A DNA stretch of 64,000 bases from Synechocystis sp. PCC 6714 (GTDB lineage Bacteria > Cyanobacteriota > Cyanobacteriia > Cyanobacteriales > Microcystaceae): NCBI RefSeq assembly GCF_000478825.2, contig NZ_CP007542.1, positions 310,001 to 374,000 on the forward strand, written 5' to 3'. The position numbers were made by a program, and so were the translations under genes. This document shows, in pieces, positions 2,416-31,770 of the stretch. Below the pieces are notes generated by a model. That model made no database searches, was not told the origin of the DNA, and saw only the letters and a list, made by a program, of their open reading frames with translations. How positions within the stretch are numbered: the first letter of the stretch is position 1; every line of letters starts with the position of its first letter.

Positions 2416-4839
2416 ATGATTTGGGCCAAATTTTCCGTTAATCAAACCCTGCGCTACCAATTGTTATTGGGTTGTGGGATAGTGCTTTTATTAACCAGCT
2501 TAATTACTGCGTTTTTTACTCAAAAAAATCTGCAGAGGGAATCGGAAATAAATAGTATACGCCGGGCCCAAAGATTGACGGAGGGAATCGAATTTGCAGC
2601 GGAAGGTTTAATCGAAACTAATGATGTTTATCGACTCAATCGCTTAGTGCAAAACTATGCCGCTTGGCCCCGGGTGGAAGATGTGTCAATTATTGATCCC
2701 AATGGCATTATTATTGCCCATAGTAGCGATTTTGGTTCGGTGCGAGGACAAAAATATAGAGAGATTAGTCCCTACTTTTTCCCCCTATTTGAACAGGTTT
2801 CCACCAGTGGCATTCCCCAATCTATTAGCACAACCATTGACGGCTATAGCGTAGTTGCCTATGCTTTGCCATTCAGTACCTATTCCTTCCCCCAGGAAAC
2901 GGAGACCCCCTTAAGTCTCCATAACCGCCGTCGGGGGGTGGCGATCGCCGTTTTAGAACAACGGGAATTGAATCAGGAGGTTAATCGGGCTCTTTTAATC
3001 GTGATAATTCCCCTAGTTATAGGTGCTGTGGTAATTCTCCTTTTGGTGAGCTTACTAATACAACACTTTGTTCTATCTCCCCTAGGTAAATTGCGCCTGG
3101 CCTTGGTTAATTATGACAATTTTAAGCAGCTTAATTTACCCCCCCTAAGCAATAATGAAATTGGTTTCTTAGGTCATACCTTGGTGCAAACCTTCGATCA
3201 ATTGGAATTTTATCAGAAGGAAGCCCTGGAAATTGCAGAGCGTAAATATGTGGAAATTGCCCAGCGCTATGAGTTAGCGTCCCAAGCCACCAGAGTTTGG
3301 GTATGGGAATATCAACCCCAATTTAACTACCTAGAAGTAGACCCCAAATTAGTTATCTGGTTAGGCTTTGATCCTGCCCCTGACCAGGCAGGAAGGGATT
3401 TTTTTATCTATCCTGGCGATCGCCCTTTATTTTGGCAAACCATTGAGCAAAGTTTAATCAATCCAGAGATGGAACTATCGGGAGAACTACGTCTGCAAGC
3501 GGCCAATGACGAAATTTATTACTGCCTATTCCGTGGGCAAATTCATCAAGAAGAAGGGGTAGAATTAGTAAGAACTATTGGAACCATTGCTGATATTACA
3601 AATATCAAAAAAGCGGAAGAAAAATTAAAGCTTTCCAACATAATTTTGGCTAAAGCTACCCAGCTCAAGGATGAATTTTTGGCCAATATGAGCCACGAAT
3701 TACGCACTCCCTTGAATTCTATTTTAGGTATGGTGGAAGCCCTGCAAAATCAAATCCATGGCCCATTAAATGACAAGCAAGCCTATTGTTTAGAAGTAGT
3801 CAAAAGAAGCGGTACTCATCTACTGTCATTGATCAACGATATTCTCGATCTTTCTAAGATTGAAGCAGGAAAGATGGACCTAGATATAGAATCTACCAAT
3901 CTAAGTTCCTTGGCTAATCAAAGCCTGAGTTTCGTACAACAGTTTGCTTTACAAAAACAAATTGATTTAGTTTGTAAAATTTCCCCAGATCTGCCCAATG
4001 CGATGGTAGATAAACGACGCATTTGTCAAGTTTTAATTAACTTACTTAGTAATGCAATTAAATTCACTCCAGAAGGAGGAAAAGTAACCATAGAAATTAG
4101 CCCAGGAGCGGAAAAAAACGAGCAAAATTTCTCTTCTTCCCCTAGCCATTTCCGCATGGTAATTGCAGACACTGGCATTGGCATTCCTCCGGAAAAGTTA
4201 GACACTATTTTCGAGCCATTCGTGCAAATCGACGGTACCCTCAATCGTCATTATGATGGCACTGGATTAGGTTTATCTTTGGTAAAAAAAATTGTTGAGC
4301 TCCATGGAGGAACGGTGAGCGTCCTCAGTGAGATAGACCGGGGCAGCCAGTTTCTTGTGGTTATTCCGTGCATTTTCGAGGATGGCGGTGAGCAATCCTC
4401 CCAAAGCGAGTTCCTAAATGCTCCTAGCCTTAAAACCCTAGTTCGAGCTAGGGTAACTTTATGCAGTGCAAATTCTGCCTATGCCACCACCCTCAGTAGT
4501 TATTTTCGGGCGAGGGGCTACCAATTGGAATGGCTCAATTGTCTCTGTCCTACGGAGGTCGAATTAATGCAATTAAGACAATTAACAAATCACTATTGCC
4601 ATTTATTAGTGATGGATTTGCCCCGGGCTGGGGCAGTGGCGGTGGATAGTTTTGATGACATACGTCGTTTCTTGGGAACAGAGTCTGTGAAAATTATTGT
4701 CCTGATCGATCCCATGGATCATGCTGATGGCCGGAGTGTCCAGATGGAAATTGCCGCCGATCGGTTTTTAATTAAGCCAGTGCATTTCCATCGCTTAATG
4801 GAAATCATCCGGGAAGAGACTCTGCCCGTTCTCAACTAA
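2416..4839 (+). CDS. Hybrid sensor histidine kinase
   Basis: The ATG at 2416 is preferred over an upstream in-frame start at 2335, which lies inside the preceding gene. The 807-residue protein has TM1 (about 14-37), a periplasmic Cache-like region, TM2 (about 193-218), a HAMP/linker, a PAS-like domain, a HisKA domain with phospho-accepting His427 (SHELRTPLN), an HATPase_c domain (GTGLGLSLVKK) and a C-terminal receiver-like domain. In that domain the phosphorylatable Asp is present (VMDLPRAG, Asp734) and so is the late Lys (FLIKPV), but the N-terminal acidic pair is replaced by a CSANS stretch. It is therefore a degenerate receiver, perhaps unable to bind Mg2+. It forms a tight pair with the solute-binding protein upstream. 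Confidence 0.9.
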   Translation: MIWAKFSVNQTLRYQLLLGCGIVLLLTSLITAFFTQKNLQRESEINSIRRAQRLTEGIEFAAEGLIETNDVYRLNRLVQNYAAWPRVEDVSIIDPNGIIIAHSSDFGSVRGQKYREISPYFFPLFEQVSTSGIPQSISTTIDGYSVVAYALPFSTYSFPQETETPLSLHNRRRGVAIAVLEQRELNQEVNRALLIVIIPLVIGAVVILLLVSLLIQHFVLSPLGKLRLALVNYDNFKQLNLPPLSNNEIGFLGHTLVQTFDQLEFYQKEALEIAERKYVEIAQRYELASQATRVWVWEYQPQFNYLEVDPKLVIWLGFDPAPDQAGRDFFIYPGDRPLFWQTIEQSLINPEMELSGELRLQAANDEIYYCLFRGQIHQEEGVELVRTIGTIADITNIKKAEEKLKLSNIILAKATQLKDEFLANMSHELRTPLNSILGMVEALQNQIHGPLNDKQAYCLEVVKRSGTHLLSLINDILDLSKIEAGKMDLDIESTNLSSLANQSLSFVQQFALQKQIDLVCKISPDLPNAMVDKRRICQVLINLLSNAIKFTPEGGKVTIEISPGAEKNEQNFSSSPSHFRMVIADTGIGIPPEKLDTIFEPFVQIDGTLNRHYDGTGLGLSLVKKIVELHGGTVSVLSEIDRGSQFLVVIPCIFEDGGEQSSQSEFLNAPSLKTLVRARVTLCSANSAYATTLSSYFRARGYQLEWLNCLCPTEVELMQLRQLTNHYCHLLVMDLPRAGAVAVDSFDDIRRFLGTESVKIIVLIDPMDHADGRSVQMEIAADRFLIKPVHFHRLMEIIREETLPVLN

Positions 4840-5342
4840 CGACGGGAGCCATCGGGCATGGTTGTTTCGTCGAATTCTGCCTCTTCCAAATCGGCATCGG
4901 TCAAGTTCGCCGCCGTTAAATTGGCCCGGGTCAGGTTGGCTCCCTTCAGGTTCGCTCCGGTTAAATCCACATCCCGCAGAAAACTCCGTTCCAAATTAGC
5001 GCCGCTCAAATCTGCCCCGGCCAGATTAGCTTCAGTTAACGCTGCTTCGGTTAAATCCGTTTCACTCAAATTTGCCCCCGCCAGGTTGGCCCGGTCCAAC
5101 AACGCCCGCCGTAAATTCACCCCGGATAAATTTGCCCCTGACAAATCGGAACGATTCAAGCGAACGTTTTCCAAATCAAACTCCCGCAAATCCGCCCCCG
5201 CCAGATTGCAATCAAGACATTCCCCTTTCTCCCGCAATTGTGATAACGGATCAATTTCTTTTCTGGGCTGATTACAAGCCGTCAGAGCCAAGATTCCCAG
5301 CAATGGTAATGGTAGGGTTAGGCTGAGTTTTTTGTTATTCAT
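4836..5342 (-). CDS. Pentapeptide-repeat lipoprotein
   Basis: This 168-residue protein starts with a lipoprotein signal peptide whose lipobox is LTAC (Cys at about 23). A continuous run of A(D/N)LXX pentapeptide repeats follows from about 46 to 155 and should fold as a right-handed quadrilateral beta-helix. Its start ATG overlaps the stop of the TonB-like gene upstream (ATGA), implying translational coupling and a shared transcript. Its stop overlaps the histidine kinase stop by four bases, tail to tail. The function is unknown; location with a TonB-like gene suggests an envelope role. Confidence 0.85.
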   Translation of the reverse strand: MNNKKLSLTLPLPLLGILALTACNQPRKEIDPLSQLREKGECLDCNLAGADLREFDLENVRLNRSDLSGANLSGVNLRRALLDRANLAGANLSETDLTEAALTEANLAGADLSGANLERSFLRDVDLTGANLKGANLTRANLTAANLTDADLEEAEFDETTMPDGSRR

Positions 5343-6136
5343 GGCGATCTAAGTTCTTCTAAGGTTTTTTGTTCGGGGGAGAGAAGATAAAACGCATCCC
5401 GTCCCGCATTATCACTGACGATGTGGAGAAATTGGGGTGGTTTATCTTGCCGATAGACTTTGTATACCCGCAGTCCTGTATCTCGATAACTCTCACTCAG
5501 GCTGAAGCCTTCTGCCTCCAAACGGGCCTGGAGGTCTTGGGTAACGGCTCGGACCGTAGCCCCTGCCAGAAAATGACAGTCGTCTGAGCCATAGCATCCC
5601 GATTGAGCTCCTTCTAGGTGAGCAATGCCAGCGATAAGTTCTCTCTTGGGCTTTAGGACGGGGGAGGGTTCAATAGTTTTAACCTCACTCTCAACCTCCT
5701 GTCCTTGGTCAGGGCTGGGTTCTGGAACTGATGCAGGCTCAATCCCATTGTCCTCCTGCTTTGGATTCGGCTGGTTCTGGGGTGCTCTTACGGCTTTGGG
5801 GGAGGCTTTCGATGGGGCAGTGGTTTGGGGGCGGAATGGTGGCGGTGCTACAACTTCAGGCGCTACTTCGGGAACAGATTGAGGCGCAGGAGGGAGAGAC
5901 GCTAAAGCTTGGGGAGATTTCCTTGGCGGAGGTTCGGCCCTGGGGGCCGGTGTCACTAGGTCGGCGAGGGGAACTGTGGCGATCGCCTCGGAAGCAGAAT
6001 CCTTCGATGGGGGGGGGAGAGGCTCCAACTCCGCTGCTGGGGGAGGTAAGGGCAACCATAATAACCCTCCATGGATGACAGACGCACAGACAAAGGCTAG
6101 GGGAAATTGTAACTGATGCCAGGAGGGTAGCCACAT
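5339..6136 (-). CDS. tonB: TonB-like energy-transducer protein
   Basis: The product of about 265 residues has one N-terminal transmembrane segment containing a Ser/His pair (ASVIHGGLL), like the TonB signal anchor. A long Pro/Ala/Glu-rich periplasmic spacer follows (about 30-170), then a C-terminal globular domain of about 90 residues. The C-terminus does not obviously match the canonical TonB motif, so TonB-like is the safe name. TonB proteins couple ExbB-ExbD and the proton motive force to outer-membrane receptors for iron chelates. FutA2, ExbB and two ExbD genes follow nearby. ATG at 6136 (MWLPSW) is preferred; an in-frame TTG lies at 6145. A palindromic operator-like motif sits about 110 bases upstream. 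Confidence 0.65.
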   Translation of the reverse strand: MWLPSWHQLQFPLAFVCASVIHGGLLWLPLPPPAAELEPLPPPSKDSASEAIATVPLADLVTPAPRAEPPPRKSPQALASLPPAPQSVPEVAPEVVAPPPFRPQTTAPSKASPKAVRAPQNQPNPKQEDNGIEPASVPEPSPDQGQEVESEVKTIEPSPVLKPKRELIAGIAHLEGAQSGCYGSDDCHFLAGATVRAVTQDLQARLEAEGFSLSESYRDTGLRVYKVYRQDKPPQFLHIVSDNAGRDAFYLLSPEQKTLEELRSP

Positions 6137-24855: not shown

Positions 24856-26232
24856 ATGGTTAAAGTTGTTCGCCGTCGTTCCCTAGGAATGCACAGGGTA
24901 TTTGACATTGGTCTCGCCCAAGACCACAACTTTCTACTAGCCAATGGGGCGATCGCCGCCAATTGTTTTAACAAATCCCATTCCACTGCCTACGCCTATG
25001 TCACTTACCAAACAGCCTATCTAAAAGCTAACTATCCAGTGGAGTATATGGCGGCCCTGCTCACCGCCAGCAGTGATAGTCAGGAAAAGGTGGAGAAATA
25101 TCGGGAAAATTGCCAAAAAATGGGCATCACTGTCGAGCCCCCCGACATTAACCGTTCCCAACGCCATTTTACCCCCCTAGGAGAATCGATTTTATTTGGT
25201 CTTTCCGCCGTGAGAAATTTGGGCGAAGGGGCGATCGAGCAAATTATTACCGCCCGAGATAATTCTGAAGAAAAACGTTTCAAATCCCTGGCAGATTTTT
25301 GCACCCAAGTGGATTTAAGGGTCGTTAACCGTCGGGCGATCGAAACGTTGATTATGGCAGGGGGCTTTGATGGTGTCCAAGCTAATCGCAACCAACTTTT
25401 ACATGATCTGGAATTGGTCATTGCTTGGGCCCAAAAGCGAGCAAAGGAGAAAGAAACCGGACAACTAAATATTTTTGATAGCCTAGCTGGTGGAGAATCC
25501 ATTAAAGCGAAAGAAGCCGCAAACAATGGCTTTGAGCAGGAACCCTCTGCTCCTCCAGTGGCGGAATTTTCCCTGCAAGAAAAGCTACAACTAGAAAAAG
25601 AACATTTAGGTTTTTACGTCTCAGAACATCCCCTCAAATCGGTGCAACGTTCTGCCCGCTTATTATCTCCCATTAACCTGGTGGATTTAGACCAGTATAA
25701 AGTGCGTCAAAAAGTCAGTGCGGTGGCTATTTTGGTAGCAGTAAAAAAGATTATTACCAAAAAAACTGGCCAACCCATGGCTTTTTTAACCCTAGAAGAT
25801 ATGTCGGGCCAATCGGAAGCGGTGGTTTTTCCCTCCAACTATGAGCGTCTGCAGGACATTTTGCTGGAAGGTAGTCAACAAATGATTTGGGGCAAAGTTG
25901 ATCGTCGGGATGACCAATACCAACTAATTGTGGAAGATTTGGAGCCGGTGGAAGAAGTAAAAATGGTTATGTTAGACCTAATGCCCCAGGACATTATTAA
26001 TACGAGCACCCAAGCCCAACTGAAGCAAATTTTGCAGAACCATGCGTCCCAAAGGGAGCAAACCAAAATACCGGTAGTAGCGTGCATTAATGAAGGGGCA
26101 ACCAAACACTTCATCCGTTTTGGGGAAAACTACTGGGTGAATGACCATGGTGCTACGGTGGCATCTCTGCAGAAATTAGGTTTTCGGGCCAGGTTAGAAC
26201 CATTGTTACCCCAAAATTGTAGCGCCAACTAG
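24856..26232 (+). CDS. dnaE-C: DNA polymerase III alpha, C-terminal part with split intein C-fragment
   Basis: Residues 1-36 are the C-terminal piece of the split DnaE intein: it opens [11 protein letters not shown], holds [14 protein letters not shown], and is followed by the obligatory Cys of the C-extein (CFNKSHS). The extein, 422 residues, is the C-terminal half of the replicative polymerase alpha subunit (OB fold and beta-clamp region). It becomes functional only after trans-splicing with a DnaE-N protein made elsewhere; no dnaE-N lies in this window. Several intein residues differ from the Synechocystis PCC 6803 version as I recall it. The intein is coded by 24856-24963 and the extein by 24964-26232. 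Confidence 0.97.
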
Positions 26233-26523
26233 ATGTGAATTGACAATCGACTAATAAGGTGACTCCGACTTAAAAAAATGGGCATTCTAGAAAAGTCGAA
26301 AATCAACATGAATATCCAAATAAGTAAAAAAACAAGACAAAAATTTACAATCAAATAAAAACCAGAGGATGTACAATTCCTCATCATGGCACAGTTGGTA
26401 ATTTGAGATATAGTCGTTTCTAGTAAGACTGAGGCAGTCGAATTCACCGAAAAGCTTGTCAATAAAGACTTAAGCAGTCTCGAAATTATTTGAAATGACT
26501 ATATTCTAGTCAGCTATAATTTC
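26233..26523. other. AT-rich spacer after dnaE-C
   Basis: No gene is supported. ORFs here are short, hydrophobic and without ribosome-binding sites. This marks the left boundary of the AT-rich, HIP1-free island that holds the AAA ATPase pair. Confidence 0.4.
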
Positions 26524-26724
26524 TTATCTGATATTTTCAAAGATCGCCTTGGCTTTATTTTGACTGGCGAACTGAGCATTAATAGTATCTAAAAAACTCG
26601 GTGGAGTAAACTTTAGGATTAGTGTGACAAGCTCCCCATTTGTGAGACTTTTTATGTACTTTTTTATCTTCTTTGTTAATTCAGGTGTTTTTATGTTAAT
26701 GCCTGTCGTATTTTCAAGAGTTCC
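26524..26724 (-). pseudogene. Frame-shifted C-terminal extension of the Toprim-like gene
   Basis: A 66-codon open frame without a start codon begins inside the last codons of the Toprim-like gene and runs on (GTLENTTGINIKTPELTKK to the end KAIFENIR). Its Lys/Glu-rich helical character matches the preceding protein. It can be joined to it by removing one base near 26725 (after EKLKLL). It may be the natural C-terminus lost by a one-base insertion, or chance coding. It could not be translated alone from ATG, GTG or TTG. Confidence 0.45.
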
Positions 26725-27457
26725 TTAAAAGCTTTAATTTTTCCCATATATCAAATAAATGTTTCAAACTTGATAAATGGTTAGTTGATGAGCATCGCTT
26801 TATTAAAGCATCTAAAAATTCTTGACTTTGAATAATTCTTGGCTGCTTTTTACTGTAAGAAAAACCGAACTCTTTCAAGTACTCTTTTAGATATTTTTCA
26901 TGAAACTTTGCTTGGGTTGAAAAGGAATAGTTCGGAGGAAAATATGGTATTTGCTCTGGATCGTCAATCAAAATGTCATAGTATTTTTGTAATTGAACAA
27001 AATCTTGTGAAATATTCTTGCGAGGGTAATAACTTGGAAGACATGCATTACCTAAAGCCCAAGTTTCGATACAGCGATGTTGAACAATGATATAAAACTC
27101 TGTTCCTTGAAATTGCTCCATACCAAGCTTGATTTTGAAATTTTCAAGTCTTGAAGTAATGTCATTAAATCGATCTCGATAGGTTTCTTCCTCTGAGTCA
27201 ACACATACAAAAAAATAATCTATATTATTGAAATTTTTTATATCAAGCAAGCAGGCTTCTAAACGAGACTTTTCTCCACTTAATTTAGGAGTGCTAACCA
27301 TATTCGGATAACCATTTCCTGGTACAATTCGACATGAATTAGTTGTTATTTCTTCAGGCTTACTTACAAAATTTAAATGAGGAAATAAATGGGACAACCA
27401 GGACTTGTAAACTTTTGGTTCTGTTCTTTTTCCTTCAACTAAGAACATAAGATTCAT
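26714..27457 (-). CDS. Toprim-like (DUF4276/RloB-like) nuclease-type partner protein
   Basis: The 247-residue protein opens with LMFLVEGKRTE, placing Glu8-Gly9 as in the first Toprim motif (acidic residue after a beta-strand). A second acidic strand follows, FFVCVDSEEE (Asp87), as in OLD-, RloB- or DUF4276-type proteins. In such proteins the acidic residues bind metal for nuclease or nucleotidyl chemistry. It starts five bases after the AAA ATPase gene, so they form one operon. The C-terminus may be shortened by a frameshift (see 26524-26724). The exact family is uncertain. Confidence 0.55.
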   Translation of the reverse strand: MNLMFLVEGKRTEPKVYKSWLSHLFPHLNFVSKPEEITTNSCRIVPGNGYPNMVSTPKLSGEKSRLEACLLDIKNFNNIDYFFVCVDSEEETYRDRFNDITSRLENFKIKLGMEQFQGTEFYIIVQHRCIETWALGNACLPSYYPRKNISQDFVQLQKYYDILIDDPEQIPYFPPNYSFSTQAKFHEKYLKEYLKEFGFSYSKKQPRIIQSQEFLDALIKRCSSTNHLSSLKHLFDIWEKLKLLRNS

Positions 27458-27462
27458 TCAGA

Positions 27463-28620
27463 TTAATCCTCATCTGCAAGAAAATCAATTAATTGAGTGA
27501 ACTTATCCAAACTTGATGCTGTATCAAGTTCGGGAATATTTCGTGCTTTAGTAGAACGAATTCGGCTGTCAATCCTACTGACAACTTGCCAGGTTTTCCA
27601 TGGAATATTGTTAATAATATAGGGATGATGACTCGTAAGTATAAATTGCAATTCAGATGACTTGTCCAAGATGAATTCTGTCAAATCAGGCATACAGTTA
27701 ATACCTAGACTATTTTCAAATTCATCAATAACAATAACTGACTCGTTTGGGGCGGCTAAAATTTCCACCAAAAAGGTAAGTGTGCGATACATACCCGACG
27801 ACATTAGCTGTTGAGAAATCCAATTATCTACTCCATTTTCTTTTATTTCAAAAAGAAGATAGTATTCATTAATAGACTCTTTGCGGACAGTAATCCTAAT
27901 ATCTTGAATATTAGGGAAAATGCCATAATAATACTCTTTTATCTCCTCAAACACCTCCGGAAAATATTGTTGAAGAAAATATGCTTTTAATACTGGTGGA
28001 GTATCAACGGAGCTTTCCTTGAATTTTTTTATGTCGATTAATTTATGAGCTTGTGAATTGGAATTTGATGATAATGTCAGATCGCGAGGATCAAAGCGAA
28101 TAGTTAAAAGACCCCTTTGTGGAACTTCATTAAAAATAAATCTTTTAAATGCTTCAGCTATAGGAGCAATTGAATCTTCTTCCTCAAGTAAAGTGATTAA
28201 ACTTTCAGTCCTTTTGAGTTTTGGAAGATCACCGTGACTCCATTTAGACTCATTTTTATCCCTTTGGAGAATTATTGTCTTGTTATTATCGATAATCTCT
28301 GTTATTTTTTCATACAAAATCTCTGCTTGTCCTGGTTCAATTGAAAAAGCTTCATTAATAGAATTTGATGTTTTCAACTCCCACATATAATTTTTTCCCA
28401 AATGGGAAAAGTTAATCGTCCATTCCACATCATCTAATTTTTGTGTTCTGTCTTTCGCTATTCTGTCTTTTGCCACATCACAAATTAAATCTAATGCGCG
28501 AAGTATTCTCGTTTTTCCAACGCCAGAAACCCCAACGAGTAAGTTTAAATCGTCAAAGAAAATTTCATCAATATGCCAGTGTTGCTTCTCACTGCTAAAT
28601 TTAAAGCTTTTTATTTTCAT
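27463..28620 (-). CDS. AAA/ABC-like ATPase (OLD/AAA_15-type)
   Basis: ATG at 28620 gives 385 residues; the TTG at 28656 would add twelve. It has Walker A GVSGVGKT (30-37), an ABC-like signature region LMSSGMYRTL (272-281), Walker B VIVIDEF (294-300) with Glu300 next to the Asp, and a switch histidine segment TSHHPYII (329-336). This is the order of SMC/OLD-like ATPases used in anti-phage systems. It precedes the Toprim-like gene. The island is AT-rich and lacks HIP1, which suggests lateral gain. Confidence 0.8.
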   Translation of the reverse strand: MKIKSFKFSSEKQHWHIDEIFFDDLNLLVGVSGVGKTRILRALDLICDVAKDRIAKDRTQKLDDVEWTINFSHLGKNYMWELKTSNSINEAFSIEPGQAEILYEKITEIIDNNKTIILQRDKNESKWSHGDLPKLKRTESLITLLEEEDSIAPIAEAFKRFIFNEVPQRGLLTIRFDPRDLTLSSNSNSQAHKLIDIKKFKESSVDTPPVLKAYFLQQYFPEVFEEIKEYYYGIFPNIQDIRITVRKESINEYYLLFEIKENGVDNWISQQLMSSGMYRTLTFLVEILAAPNESVIVIDEFENSLGINCMPDLTEFILDKSSELQFILTSHHPYIINNIPWKTWQVVSRIDSRIRSTKARNIPELDTASSLDKFTQLIDFLADED

Positions 28621-28797
28621 ATTTTCAGTCCTGTAAAGTTTAACTCCTATTGCCAATGTAAGTTTCCAGAGTTAGAAACTTTGCAATATTTAAGTGTTGG
28701 CATGTTAAAGGCTATCCTCTATAGAATAAACGTATGAAACTTTGTTAATCTAAGCTTGGATGGGGGAGATAAACATCTCCCCTAACTTGTCAATTTA

Positions 28798-31770
28798 CTA
28801 CTGATCTGCTCCTTCAATGGGTGCAAAGCCTTGGCGTTGAATGTTTTCCGTTACATGGCGGGGTTCTAAAAACTGTAATAAATAATCTGGGCCACCCGCT
28901 TTGGAGCCTACCCCAGACATTTTGAAACCGCCGAAGGGTTGGCGGGAAACGATCGCCCCAGTGATGGTGCGGTTAATGTAAAGATTGCCCACCTCAAATT
29001 CCTTGGCGGCCTGATCAATGTGTTCCGGGGTGCGGGAATAAAGCCCGCCGGTGAGAGCGTAGTCTGTACCATTGGCAACTTCCAACGCTTCGTCAAAATT
29101 ACTGGCTCGGATAATCGCCACTACGGGGCCAAAAATTTCTTCCTGGGCAATGGTGGCATGGGGAGAAACATTCTTAAAGACGGTGGGACCGACAAAATAA
29201 CCTTCTGTGGGGGCTTCCCGTTCAATGGCCAATTCACATTCCGCTTTACCCTGTTCGATATATTCCTTAATGCGGGCTTGGGCTTTACCGTCAATCACTG
29301 GCCCCACTTGGGTGCTGGGGTGATCCGTATCACCAATGTTGAGGGAACGGGTGGCCTCGACAAAACGTTCCACAAAGGCATCATGGACAGGGGCTAAGAC
29401 CACAATGCGAGAACAGGCAGAACATTTTTGCCCGGTGTAACCAAAGGCGGAATACACTGCTCCGGCCACAGCCTGGTCTAGATCAGCACTTTCGTCGACA
29501 ATGATGGCGTTTTTACCCCCCATTTCTGCAATTACCCGCTTAAGGTGTTTTTGCCCCGGTTGTACTAGGGCGGCATCGGCATAAATGCGACAACCCACTT
29601 CCCGAGAGCCGGTGAAGGCAATTAAATGAACGTCGGGATGATTAACTAAATGGGAACCCACTACGGAACCCTTACCGGGAATAAATTGAAAAACGCCCTT
29701 TGGAACGCCGGCTTCGATGAGAATTTCAGTAATCTTTGCCGCAATGACGGTGGAAGTTTCCGCTGGTTTGAGCAAAGTACAATTGCCCGCCACCAATGCC
29801 GCTACGGTCATGCCAACGGCGATCGCCATGGGGAAATTCCAGGGAGAAATTACCAGGGCAATGCCCCGGGGTTGGTAAAGGTAACGATTGGTTTCGCCGG
29901 GAATGTCTAGATTTACGCCCTGATCCAACCGCTCCATTTCATCAGCGTAGTAACGACAAAAATCGATCGCCTCGGACACTTCCGCATCTGCTTGGGGAAT
30001 AATTTTGCCCACTTCTAAGCAAATCCAAGCATTGAGCTCATGGCGACGACTTTCCATAATGTCCGCCGCTTTCCGCAAAATGCCACACCGTTCCCGCACA
30101 GGGGTTTTTTTCCAACCGGGGAAAGCCTCTTTGGCCATTTCAATAGCGTGATCCGCCTGTTCAATATTGATCAGGCCAACTTTGCCAATAATTTCCGATG
30201 GACGACAGGGATTAACCGATTCAATGATGGTTTCCGTTTGGACGTATTCACCATTGATGTAGGGTAAATAGGTTTTACTTAACTGTTGTTTAACTCGGGT
30301 CAGAGATTGGAACGCTTTTTGGCGTAAATCGGCATCGGCATAGTCTGTATCGGGGGCGTTGGGATAACCCTTATTGGGCAGTTCGTTGACCCCCTTCACC
30401 TGGGGCGCACCAATTAATTCTTCCACGGGGCGTTCTTCCAAATTTTGCCGCAGGAAGGAACTATTGGCCGTATTTTCCAGCAATCGTCGGATTAAATAAG
30501 CCATACCCGGCAGTAGCTTGCCGTAGGGAGCATAAACCCGTACTCGATGACCCCGTTTAACAATGGCCCGGGCTAAGGGTTCCCCCATGCCGTAAAGAAT
30601 TTGCATTTCATAACGACGTTTAGGAATATTTAACTCTTCGGCGATGGCACAGGCCAAAGCCTGGGAACGAACATTATGGCTACCAATGGCGGCGTATAAA
30701 TATTCGTGGTTTTCCAACAGTAACCGGGTCATCCGTTCATAATTGGCATCGGTTTGAGCTTTTTCCACGTAAACCGGAATTGACCAGTGATTTTGTTGGG
30801 CTTTAATGGTTTCTTGATCCCAATAGGCCCCTTTGACTAAGCGCACTGTAACCGGATAACCCCGATGTTTAGCCCAAGGAATTAAGTCTTCTAAATCCTC
30901 CGCAGAATCCCGTAAATAGGCCTGCATGGTGATGCCCACATCGGTGCGGGAACGAAATTCTTCTTCTACTAAAAGTTCCTTGAGAATATTTAAAATTAGA
31001 TTTTTATAATGATATTGCTCCATGTCAAAATGGACAGCCACATTCAATTCCTTAGCTTGGCGCAATAGTTCCCGAATCCGTTCACAAACCTTGGCTTTAC
31101 TTCCTTCCGGATCCAGGGGGTCAAACTGGGAATAAAAGGCGGTTAATTTAACTGAAACTTGTACTTGGGGCAACATTTCCCCATCCGCCTGATCAATCTG
31201 AGGCACCGTTGACCAAGATTTTGCTTGCTGGGAAAGTTGAGCCATCAAATCTAAATAATTCTGCCAATAGGCTGACGCTTCCGTTTCCGTTATGACCGCT
31301 TCCCCCAATAAGTCGATGGTGAAGCCCATTTTTTCCTTGCGTAACTTTTCTACCGCTTTAATCACCTGGGCAATGGTTTCCCCAGCAATGTATTTAAAGG
31401 CTAAAGTTTCCGTTGCTTTGCTAATGGTGGCCGCTGCCAACTGGGCCGGGGGAGATTGAGCATCGGCAAAATTAAGCAACTTTTTCAATGCTTCCGGCAA
31501 TTCCACATCTTCTTCCCCCATATACTGCTGGAGATGATGGGCAATTTCCGTATTACTTTGCAGGGCAGGCAGACAATCAATAAATTTAAACAATTGCACC
31601 CGTAAACCAGGGTGGGCCATGGCCCAGTCGAGCAATTTGTCATCTAAGCGAAAATTATCACTGAGCTTGTTCCAAAGAGAACGCTTTTCCCTGGTTTCTG
31701 CCAATAATTCTCTGGCGATCGCCTGGGTGGCCTGTTCATACTGCTGTTGTGACTCGATTTGTGCAACCAT
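28798..31770 (-). CDS. putA: Bifunctional proline dehydrogenase / P5C dehydrogenase
   Basis: The 990-residue enzyme oxidises proline to glutamate. The N-terminal half is the FAD-binding proline dehydrogenase barrel (FDMEQYHYKNL, RLVKGAYWDQE, RRYEMQILYGM). The C-terminal half is an aldehyde dehydrogenase using NAD, with ISPWNFPMAIA, the catalytic-Glu region VIAEMGGKNA and the nucleophile loop GYTGQKCSACSR. There is no N-terminal ribbon-helix-helix domain as in E. coli PutA, so it does not autoregulate that way. HIP1 sites inside contrast with the neighbouring accessory island. Confidence 0.97.
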   Translation of the reverse strand: MVAQIESQQQYEQATQAIARELLAETREKRSLWNKLSDNFRLDDKLLDWAMAHPGLRVQLFKFIDCLPALQSNTEIAHHLQQYMGEEDVELPEALKKLLNFADAQSPPAQLAAATISKATETLAFKYIAGETIAQVIKAVEKLRKEKMGFTIDLLGEAVITETEASAYWQNYLDLMAQLSQQAKSWSTVPQIDQADGEMLPQVQVSVKLTAFYSQFDPLDPEGSKAKVCERIRELLRQAKELNVAVHFDMEQYHYKNLILNILKELLVEEEFRSRTDVGITMQAYLRDSAEDLEDLIPWAKHRGYPVTVRLVKGAYWDQETIKAQQNHWSIPVYVEKAQTDANYERMTRLLLENHEYLYAAIGSHNVRSQALACAIAEELNIPKRRYEMQILYGMGEPLARAIVKRGHRVRVYAPYGKLLPGMAYLIRRLLENTANSSFLRQNLEERPVEELIGAPQVKGVNELPNKGYPNAPDTDYADADLRQKAFQSLTRVKQQLSKTYLPYINGEYVQTETIIESVNPCRPSEIIGKVGLINIEQADHAIEMAKEAFPGWKKTPVRERCGILRKAADIMESRRHELNAWICLEVGKIIPQADAEVSEAIDFCRYYADEMERLDQGVNLDIPGETNRYLYQPRGIALVISPWNFPMAIAVGMTVAALVAGNCTLLKPAETSTVIAAKITEILIEAGVPKGVFQFIPGKGSVVGSHLVNHPDVHLIAFTGSREVGCRIYADAALVQPGQKHLKRVIAEMGGKNAIIVDESADLDQAVAGAVYSAFGYTGQKCSACSRIVVLAPVHDAFVERFVEATRSLNIGDTDHPSTQVGPVIDGKAQARIKEYIEQGKAECELAIEREAPTEGYFVGPTVFKNVSPHATIAQEEIFGPVVAIIRASNFDEALEVANGTDYALTGGLYSRTPEHIDQAAKEFEVGNLYINRTITGAIVSRQPFGGFKMSGVGSKAGGPDYLLQFLEPRHVTENIQRQGFAPIEGADQ

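Follow-up and report, generated by a model that had tools for sequence, protein, structure and literature searches.

The window analysed here, a 64,000-nucleotide stretch of Synechocystis sp. PCC 6714 (contig NZ_CP007542.1, positions 310,001 to 374,000 of the forward strand), contains an AT-rich island at 26233..28797 (no strand assigned; all coordinates are those of the window) that separates dnaE-C from putA, where two chromosome blocks meet and homology to congeners breaks. The island carries two genes on the minus strand. The first encodes a predicted ABC (Rad50/SMC-like) ATPase of 385 amino acids counted from an ATG (28620-27463), a probable sensor or regulator whose mechanically called open reading frame (ORF) begins 12 codons earlier, at a TTG; the second follows after a gap of 5 bases and encodes a Toprim-like predicted nuclease of 247 amino acids (27457-26714), related to RloB, DUF4276 and AbiLii, as the probable effector. 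The original prediction, made from the sequence of 26524 to 28620 without database searches, had read this pair as a laterally gained anti-phage operon of an AAA-ATPase and a Toprim-like protein. Its five-base spacing was recovered exactly, as were all of its quoted motifs (GVSGVGKT, VIVIDEF, TSHHPYII, VEGKRTE and CVDSEEE, together with an ABC-like SSGM) in the translations; its boundary at 26524 was misplaced, as the second gene stops 190 bases short of it, leaving only a 64-codon frame there.

The two genes occur together almost wherever the second is found. A pattern scan of a species-genome collection recovered 208 stretches encoding relatives of the second protein, of which the best 80 were kept (hereafter genome-contig loci); the full comparison comprised 110 loci (L001-L110), the window's own included, some of which may represent the same genome twice. 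The ATPase gene adjoins the second gene in 108 of the 110 loci, on the same strand in every one of these 108, with a 4-nt overlap in 72 and a gap of at most 13 nt in 106; the two exceptions are a locus that ends at a contig end yet shows the end of an ATPase (L064) and a degenerate one (L030). Pairwise distances of the two proteins co-vary closely (r = 0.86 over 47 rows, against 0.23 for the best of 5,000 permutations), and the two proteins are encoded by separate genes in the window and in all 108 paired loci. Pairing, shared strand and co-divergence show that the two genes form an operon-like unit, as had been proposed. Clustering of the ORFs within 3 kb, carried out for 72 of the 80 genome-contig loci, yielded no convincing third component among the 14 largest clusters, which were inspected. 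The largest of these (8, 7, 7, 7 and 7 loci) are flanks common to related cyanobacteria, and the clusters that span lineages (named by eye as response-regulator/histidine-kinase-like, 6 loci; PIN-like, 4; and repeat-rich, 4) were set aside as widespread families whose position varies. In L102, a long ORF gave the impression of a large N-terminal part fused to the ATPase, but this has the look of a spurious, GC-rich extension.

The ATPase carries a Walker A motif, GVSGVGKT (28510..28533, minus; residues 30-37), an ABC-like signature, SSGM (27790..27801, minus; residues 274-277), a Walker B motif, VIVIDEF (27718..27738, minus; residues 295-301), and a switch-like TSHHPYII (27613..27636, minus; residues 329-336). 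Among 49 aligned ATPases (48 of the 80 genome-contig loci plus the window), G30, S32, G35 and K36 of the first motif, S274, G276 and M277 of the second, D299 and E300 of the third, and T329, H331, H332, P333 and Y334 of the fourth are invariant (49/49). In Pfam the protein matches AAA_21 (1.5e-20, 75 bits) and AAA_15 (40.6 bits), its best PADLOC models are AriA (2.8e-25) and AbiLi (2.2e-21), and the closest solved chain by sequence is AriA (1.4e-6); the PADLOC AriA model is not specific, having the same length and match range as the generic Pfam AAA_21. Because its AlphaFold model (predicted local distance difference test, pLDDT, 89.1) matches retron PtuA complexes, Rad50 and SMC heads at E values of 1e-11 to 7e-10 among the 50 Foldseek matches listed, the predicted fold is of the ABC/Rad50 type and not AAA+, which corrects the earlier AAA label.

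The second protein carries a first acidic, Toprim-like motif, VEGKRTE (27419..27439, minus; residues 7-13), a DxD/E-like motif, CVDSEEE (27185..27205, minus; residues 85-91), and a third motif, CIETWALGN (27047..27073, minus; residues 129-137), which hhalign aligned with the FElW-type motif of RloB. Across 62 aligned second proteins (61 of the 80 genome-contig loci plus the window), E8, D87, E131, W133 and G136 are each present in 62/62, residue 89 is D or E in 62/62, and E13 is present in 61/62; since residues are invariant across the 49 ATPases and the 62 second proteins, the motifs are more than chance. The Toprim fold is marked by a beta-alpha order in which strand 1 is followed by an acidic residue and a later strand by DxD/E. 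In the AlphaFold model of the second protein (pLDDT 94.4), strands (E) and helices (H) follow in the order E3-7, H12-24, E29-31, E41-46, H65-76, E81-87, H93-110 and E120-126, with E8, D87 and E89 in place, so that the modelled order and the conserved acidic residues fit Toprim. Neither the window protein nor any other protein of the genome reached the curated cut-off of RloB (PF13707) or of DUF4276 (PF14103). Relationships emerge when the family is taken as a whole: in the A1 set, where 27 of 30 loci were used (window included; three truncated loci left out), matches at E ≤ 1 were obtained by 21 members to AbiLii (best 1.3e-7), by 17 to DUF4276 (7e-8), by 12 to RloB (7.5e-6), by 5 to DUF3226 (1.8e-4) and by 8 to an HEC-01B model (1.1e-4), with another such model at 4.8e-5. 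The hhalign comparison, in which proteins were kept by length (21 of 24 RloB, 27 of 30 DUF4276 and 13 of 18 DUF4435 proteins, the last found in 19 loci), gave the second-protein family profile a probability of 97.5 with DUF4276, 96.6 with RloB and 26 with DUF4435, while controls gave 0.1 to 2.2 (reversed sequences) and 0.1 (the ATPase family). The family also has signatures of its own: CIETWxLGN, DPE and FHxxYL.

The genomic setting of the pair supports its lateral gain. The GC contents of the two genes are 0.334 and 0.316, against 0.478 for the window, and the 2.4-kb stretch of lowest GC in the window begins at 26301 (scan in steps of 100) and takes in the pair, which bears out the AT-rich island originally described. 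Homology to the nearest congeners, G076 and G093, breaks off at 26215, within the final codons of dnaE-C, and picks up again where putA ends (at 28799 for G076 and 28714 for G093). These two flanks are separated by about 307 kb in G076 and by about 49 kb in G093, the sequence that follows dnaE-C in G076 is found in the present genome about 152 kb from its own dnaE-C, and the 1.7 kb after putA in G076 has only a single 37-base match in the present genome. Because the flanking blocks lie apart in congeners, the island sits at a rearrangement junction. The second protein is missing from all four further genomes of this genus; together with the lowest GC of the window and a position between displaced blocks, this supports lateral gain, in agreement with the original prediction.

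The distribution of the family is broad and patchy. The second protein was matched in 31 of the 386 genomes sampled from the phylum (its own included), and the pair is thus not one that all relatives conserve. Pseudanabaena (identity up to 64%) and Nostocales hold its nearest relatives, the matches within the window's own family (G253, G312 and G357) being only 34 to 38% identical. In the tree, whose rows span 12 phylum-level groups, a Thiomargarita sequence joins the Pseudanabaena and Nostocales relatives in a group of ten that has full support. Plasmid records gave 7 matches, four of them on records under 16 kb (two of the seven were inspected), and phage records gave 1, on an unannotated 4.2-kb scaffold. 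Two relatives were found in the viral collection, one on a contig with a phage integrase (L215) and one, L216, beside genes of filamentous phage: one for morphogenesis, of the protein I/Zot type, and one for a minor head protein that binds the receptor. In L216 the pair occupies 3867-5687 and lies downstream of the former of these two genes.

By sequence comparison, the nearest known relatives of the pair are ATPase + DUF4276 (PF14103) pairs. At E ≤ 0.01, the window ATPase profile was matched in 28 of 30 DUF4276 loci (in L192 within the matched DUF4276 ORF itself), 2 of 24 RloB loci (1.5-kb flanks only) and 5 of 19 DUF4435 loci, and the second-protein profile in 5 of 30, 1 of 24 and 0 of 19, respectively. 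ATPase + DUF4276 pairs likewise place an ABC-ATPase gene beside a Toprim-like gene, and theirs is the family with the highest hhalign probability; they differ in that the window protein has no PF14103 match and bears the CIETWxLGN, DPE and FHxxYL signatures instead. AbiL (AbiLi + AbiLii) and RloB are likewise two-gene pairs of an AAA_21-type ATPase and an RloB-type Toprim protein, and the window ATPase matches the AbiLi model, although the generic AriA/AAA_21 model scores higher and the second protein reaches AbiLii at E 0.027 only. Congeners G076 and G093 carry a different cousin pair, ATPase + DUF4276 (L187 and L188).

PARIS (AriA + AriB) also shares a related ATPase and a separate Toprim-like partner with the window pair. 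The PARIS study gives ATPase thresholds of 32 bits for AAA_15 or 27 bits for AAA_21, and 27 bits for the DUF4435 partner (PMC9122126); the window ATPase lies above both of the former. Membership was nevertheless rejected, the partner having no Pfam match, the genome no DUF4435, and the hhalign probability with DUF4435 being as low as stated above. Septu was also rejected: the ATPase has its best structural matches in retron PtuA-type complexes, but its partner has no HNH (PtuB) match in Pfam. OLD class 1 and Gabija GajA hold ATPase and Toprim in one chain, whereas here they are two genes, and were rejected on that ground. The kinship to OLD, PARIS and RloB-like pairs suggested originally thus holds for RloB, with DUF4276 and AbiLii added, and not for PARIS; the type, which could not be named exactly there, can be placed more closely, nearest to ATPase + DUF4276, AbiLi/AbiLii and RloB. 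No paper naming DUF4276 was found in the literature searched, which covers few subscription papers, and titles and abstract openings in the same literature revealed no publication describing this ATPase/Toprim-like subfamily.

Taken together, we consider it probable that the island encodes a laterally gained two-gene defence module of an ABC-ATPase and a Toprim protein, closest to ATPase + DUF4276 and AbiLi/AbiLii (RloB) pairs. The ATPase is cast as sensor or regulator and the second protein as nuclease because of the analogy with PARIS, the RloB-type pair and AbiL, and the steps of complex formation, sensing, cleavage and phage defence are predictions of the same kind. According to published work, AriA of PARIS holds AriB until a phage protein is sensed, whereupon AriB cuts tRNA (PMC12409363), and AbiL is said to work by abortive infection through AbiLii (PMC10440598). 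By analogy, the ATPase would oligomerise, bind ATP and hold or license the Toprim protein; once it sensed a phage component, it would activate or release its partner, which would cut nucleic acid through a metal-dependent site formed by E8, D87, the acidic residue 89 and E131. The target would most likely be RNA such as tRNA, as with AriB, and its cleavage would stop growth so that the phage could not multiply.

The readings weighed against this one overlap with it and are not exclusive. The one that comes nearest, differing in substrate only, is a two-chain, ATP-regulated DNA nuclease of the OLD or Gabija kind that would degrade invading DNA directly, with no arrest of growth through RNA cleavage. 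The Rad50/SMC-like fold of the ATPase suits it, and Toprim enzymes of OLD and Gabija are described as cutting DNA (PMC10568477, PMC12409363); on the other hand, AriB, a Toprim partner encoded by a separate gene and with a known target, cuts tRNA (PMC12409363). The sequence does not decide between tRNA and DNA, and we regard a DNA nuclease as unlikely, though still deserving attention. Less likely again is a toxin-antitoxin or addiction pair: the Toprim protein would be toxic unconditionally and be neutralised by the ATPase, and addiction of a plasmid or genome, not phage defence, would keep the two genes in place. In favour of this, members occur on plasmids, and an RloB-homologous TOPRIM : AAA pair was validated in E. 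coli as toxin and neutraliser (PMC10440598). Against it, deletion of either gene of PARIS is reported as non-toxic (PMC9122126), and the damaged loci of the family point the other way. In a set of 12 loci picked because their ORFs were short or split, the ATPase gene is damaged and the second gene intact in L047 (a large internal loss), L059 (a frame change) and L087 (one stop); the second gene is truncated beside an intact ATPase gene in L028 and, near a contig end, in L044; and both genes are damaged in L029, L036 and L080. Because loci with a damaged ATPase keep an intact second gene, these sequences argue mildly that the second protein is not freely toxic but activated by the ATPase, as in PARIS. 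All three of the former loci are on contigs of metagenome-assembled genomes, and that of L047 holds another pair (L062).

Several observations weigh against a defence module of this descent. The window's second protein has no match in Pfam (HNH included) or NCBIfam, its AbiLii match in PADLOC, the only one there, lies below the library thresholds, and AriA is missing from the 50 Foldseek matches listed for the ATPase fold. Because Foldseek also found no match for the second protein at E ≤ 0.001 in PDB or BFVD, its likely Toprim fold rests on profile comparison and motif order; the Toprim-like character originally proposed is thus suggested by profiles, strand order and acidic residues, and not by a significant structural match. 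An RloB-like phage protein in BFVD has the top TM-scores against model length (0.41/0.46) among the 50 matches listed, with a probability of 0.93 but an E value of 0.03, and is not counted as proof; a search of solved chains by sequence found no relative of the second protein. The lack of HIP1 octamers (GCGATCGC), noted earlier as a mark of the island, is real in that none of the 61 sites of the window starts between 24950 and 29818, its largest gap. This gap is not significant, as 41% of uniform placements give a maximum gap this large and the absence of HIP1 from 2,497 bp has P of about 0.09, and HIP1 absence was dropped as a signal of lateral gain. In its available part, the source on the RloB-type pair describes no phage assay for it, and another AAA pair tested there, the third, failed to protect E. 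coli against a collection of coliphages (PMC10440598).

Neighbouring genes add to these objections. An mnmG-like neighbour is common to eight cyanobacterial loci (seven Nostocales by title and one UBA11153), and another set of neighbour genes recurs in seven other loci, all Nostocales. Because these eight and seven loci keep fixed neighbours, part of the family is long settled at fixed sites, which speaks against extreme mobility. We assume the name mnmG from Pfam GIDA matches of 2 of 100 sampled neighbours. The mnmG/gidA-like gene lies upstream on the minus strand, divergent to the pair, in L066, L067, L072, L073, L082, L086, L099 and L104, and would, as a tRNA-modification gene, be a curious neighbour for a suspected tRNase system. 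Nor were defence genes enriched nearby: at E ≤ 1e-20, PADLOC families numbered 18 among neighbours (100 of 291 ORFs from 39 cyanobacterial loci; ORFs under 100 or of at least 900 amino acids left out) and 26 among controls (100 of 154 ORFs from window and congener flanks, L128-L135), in a test that is weak because its tables count families rather than distinct ORFs and its controls come from five genomes with homologous stretches. Control matches (25 of the 26 families listed) were mostly PD-T4-6 models, which we take to be kinase-type, plus mad3, mad6 and others. The mad3 model was matched by 3 of the 100 control ORFs, best at 7e-59.

Fixed places beside the mnmG-like gene or the other common genes, and neighbours not enriched in defence genes by this weak test, are what would be expected of a housekeeping pair for nucleic-acid processing, for example RNA or DNA repair, with no part in defence. 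We hold this to be very improbable: a patchy family, found in 31 of 386 genomes and 0 of 4 congeners, spread over distant phyla and carried on phage contigs and plasmids, does not resemble one.

The defence module may be set apart still further. It is conceivable, though we would not count on it, that the pair represents a distinct, unnamed immune family in which an ABC-ATPase acts with a Toprim clade of its own (CIETWxLGN/DPE/FHxxYL), with a trigger and an RNA or DNA target peculiar to it, present in at least 12 phylum-level groups, on filamentous phages and on plasmids, and unrecognised by the curated libraries searched. If the defence reading is true, the pair would add a widespread unnamed branch to the ATPase + Toprim defence pairs, and one that is directly testable, since close relatives of the genome can be handled in the laboratory. 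Because DUF4276, the nearest family, is named in no paper found in the literature searched, one assayed member would help to explain many annotated 'hypothetical proteins'.

The remaining features of the island are minor. Directly after the second gene lies an open frame of 64 codons that lacks an ordinary start codon (26527-26718, minus), for which searches found no convincing relatives; the idea that it is an effector-associated domain gained no support from Pfam, and the frame is perhaps a gene remnant. Scans of the locus for promoters (12 versus 10.6) and terminators (3 versus 1.9) gave counts near chance, and no direct repeats or inverted ends stood out at the island borders. In congener G076, an AT-rich gene (GC 0.32; L129 9511-9897, minus) without a Pfam match lies right after putA; this end of putA is perhaps a variable site. 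On the other side of the island, dnaE-C (24856-26232) opens with a segment that resembles the known split intein of DnaE, in its C-terminal half.

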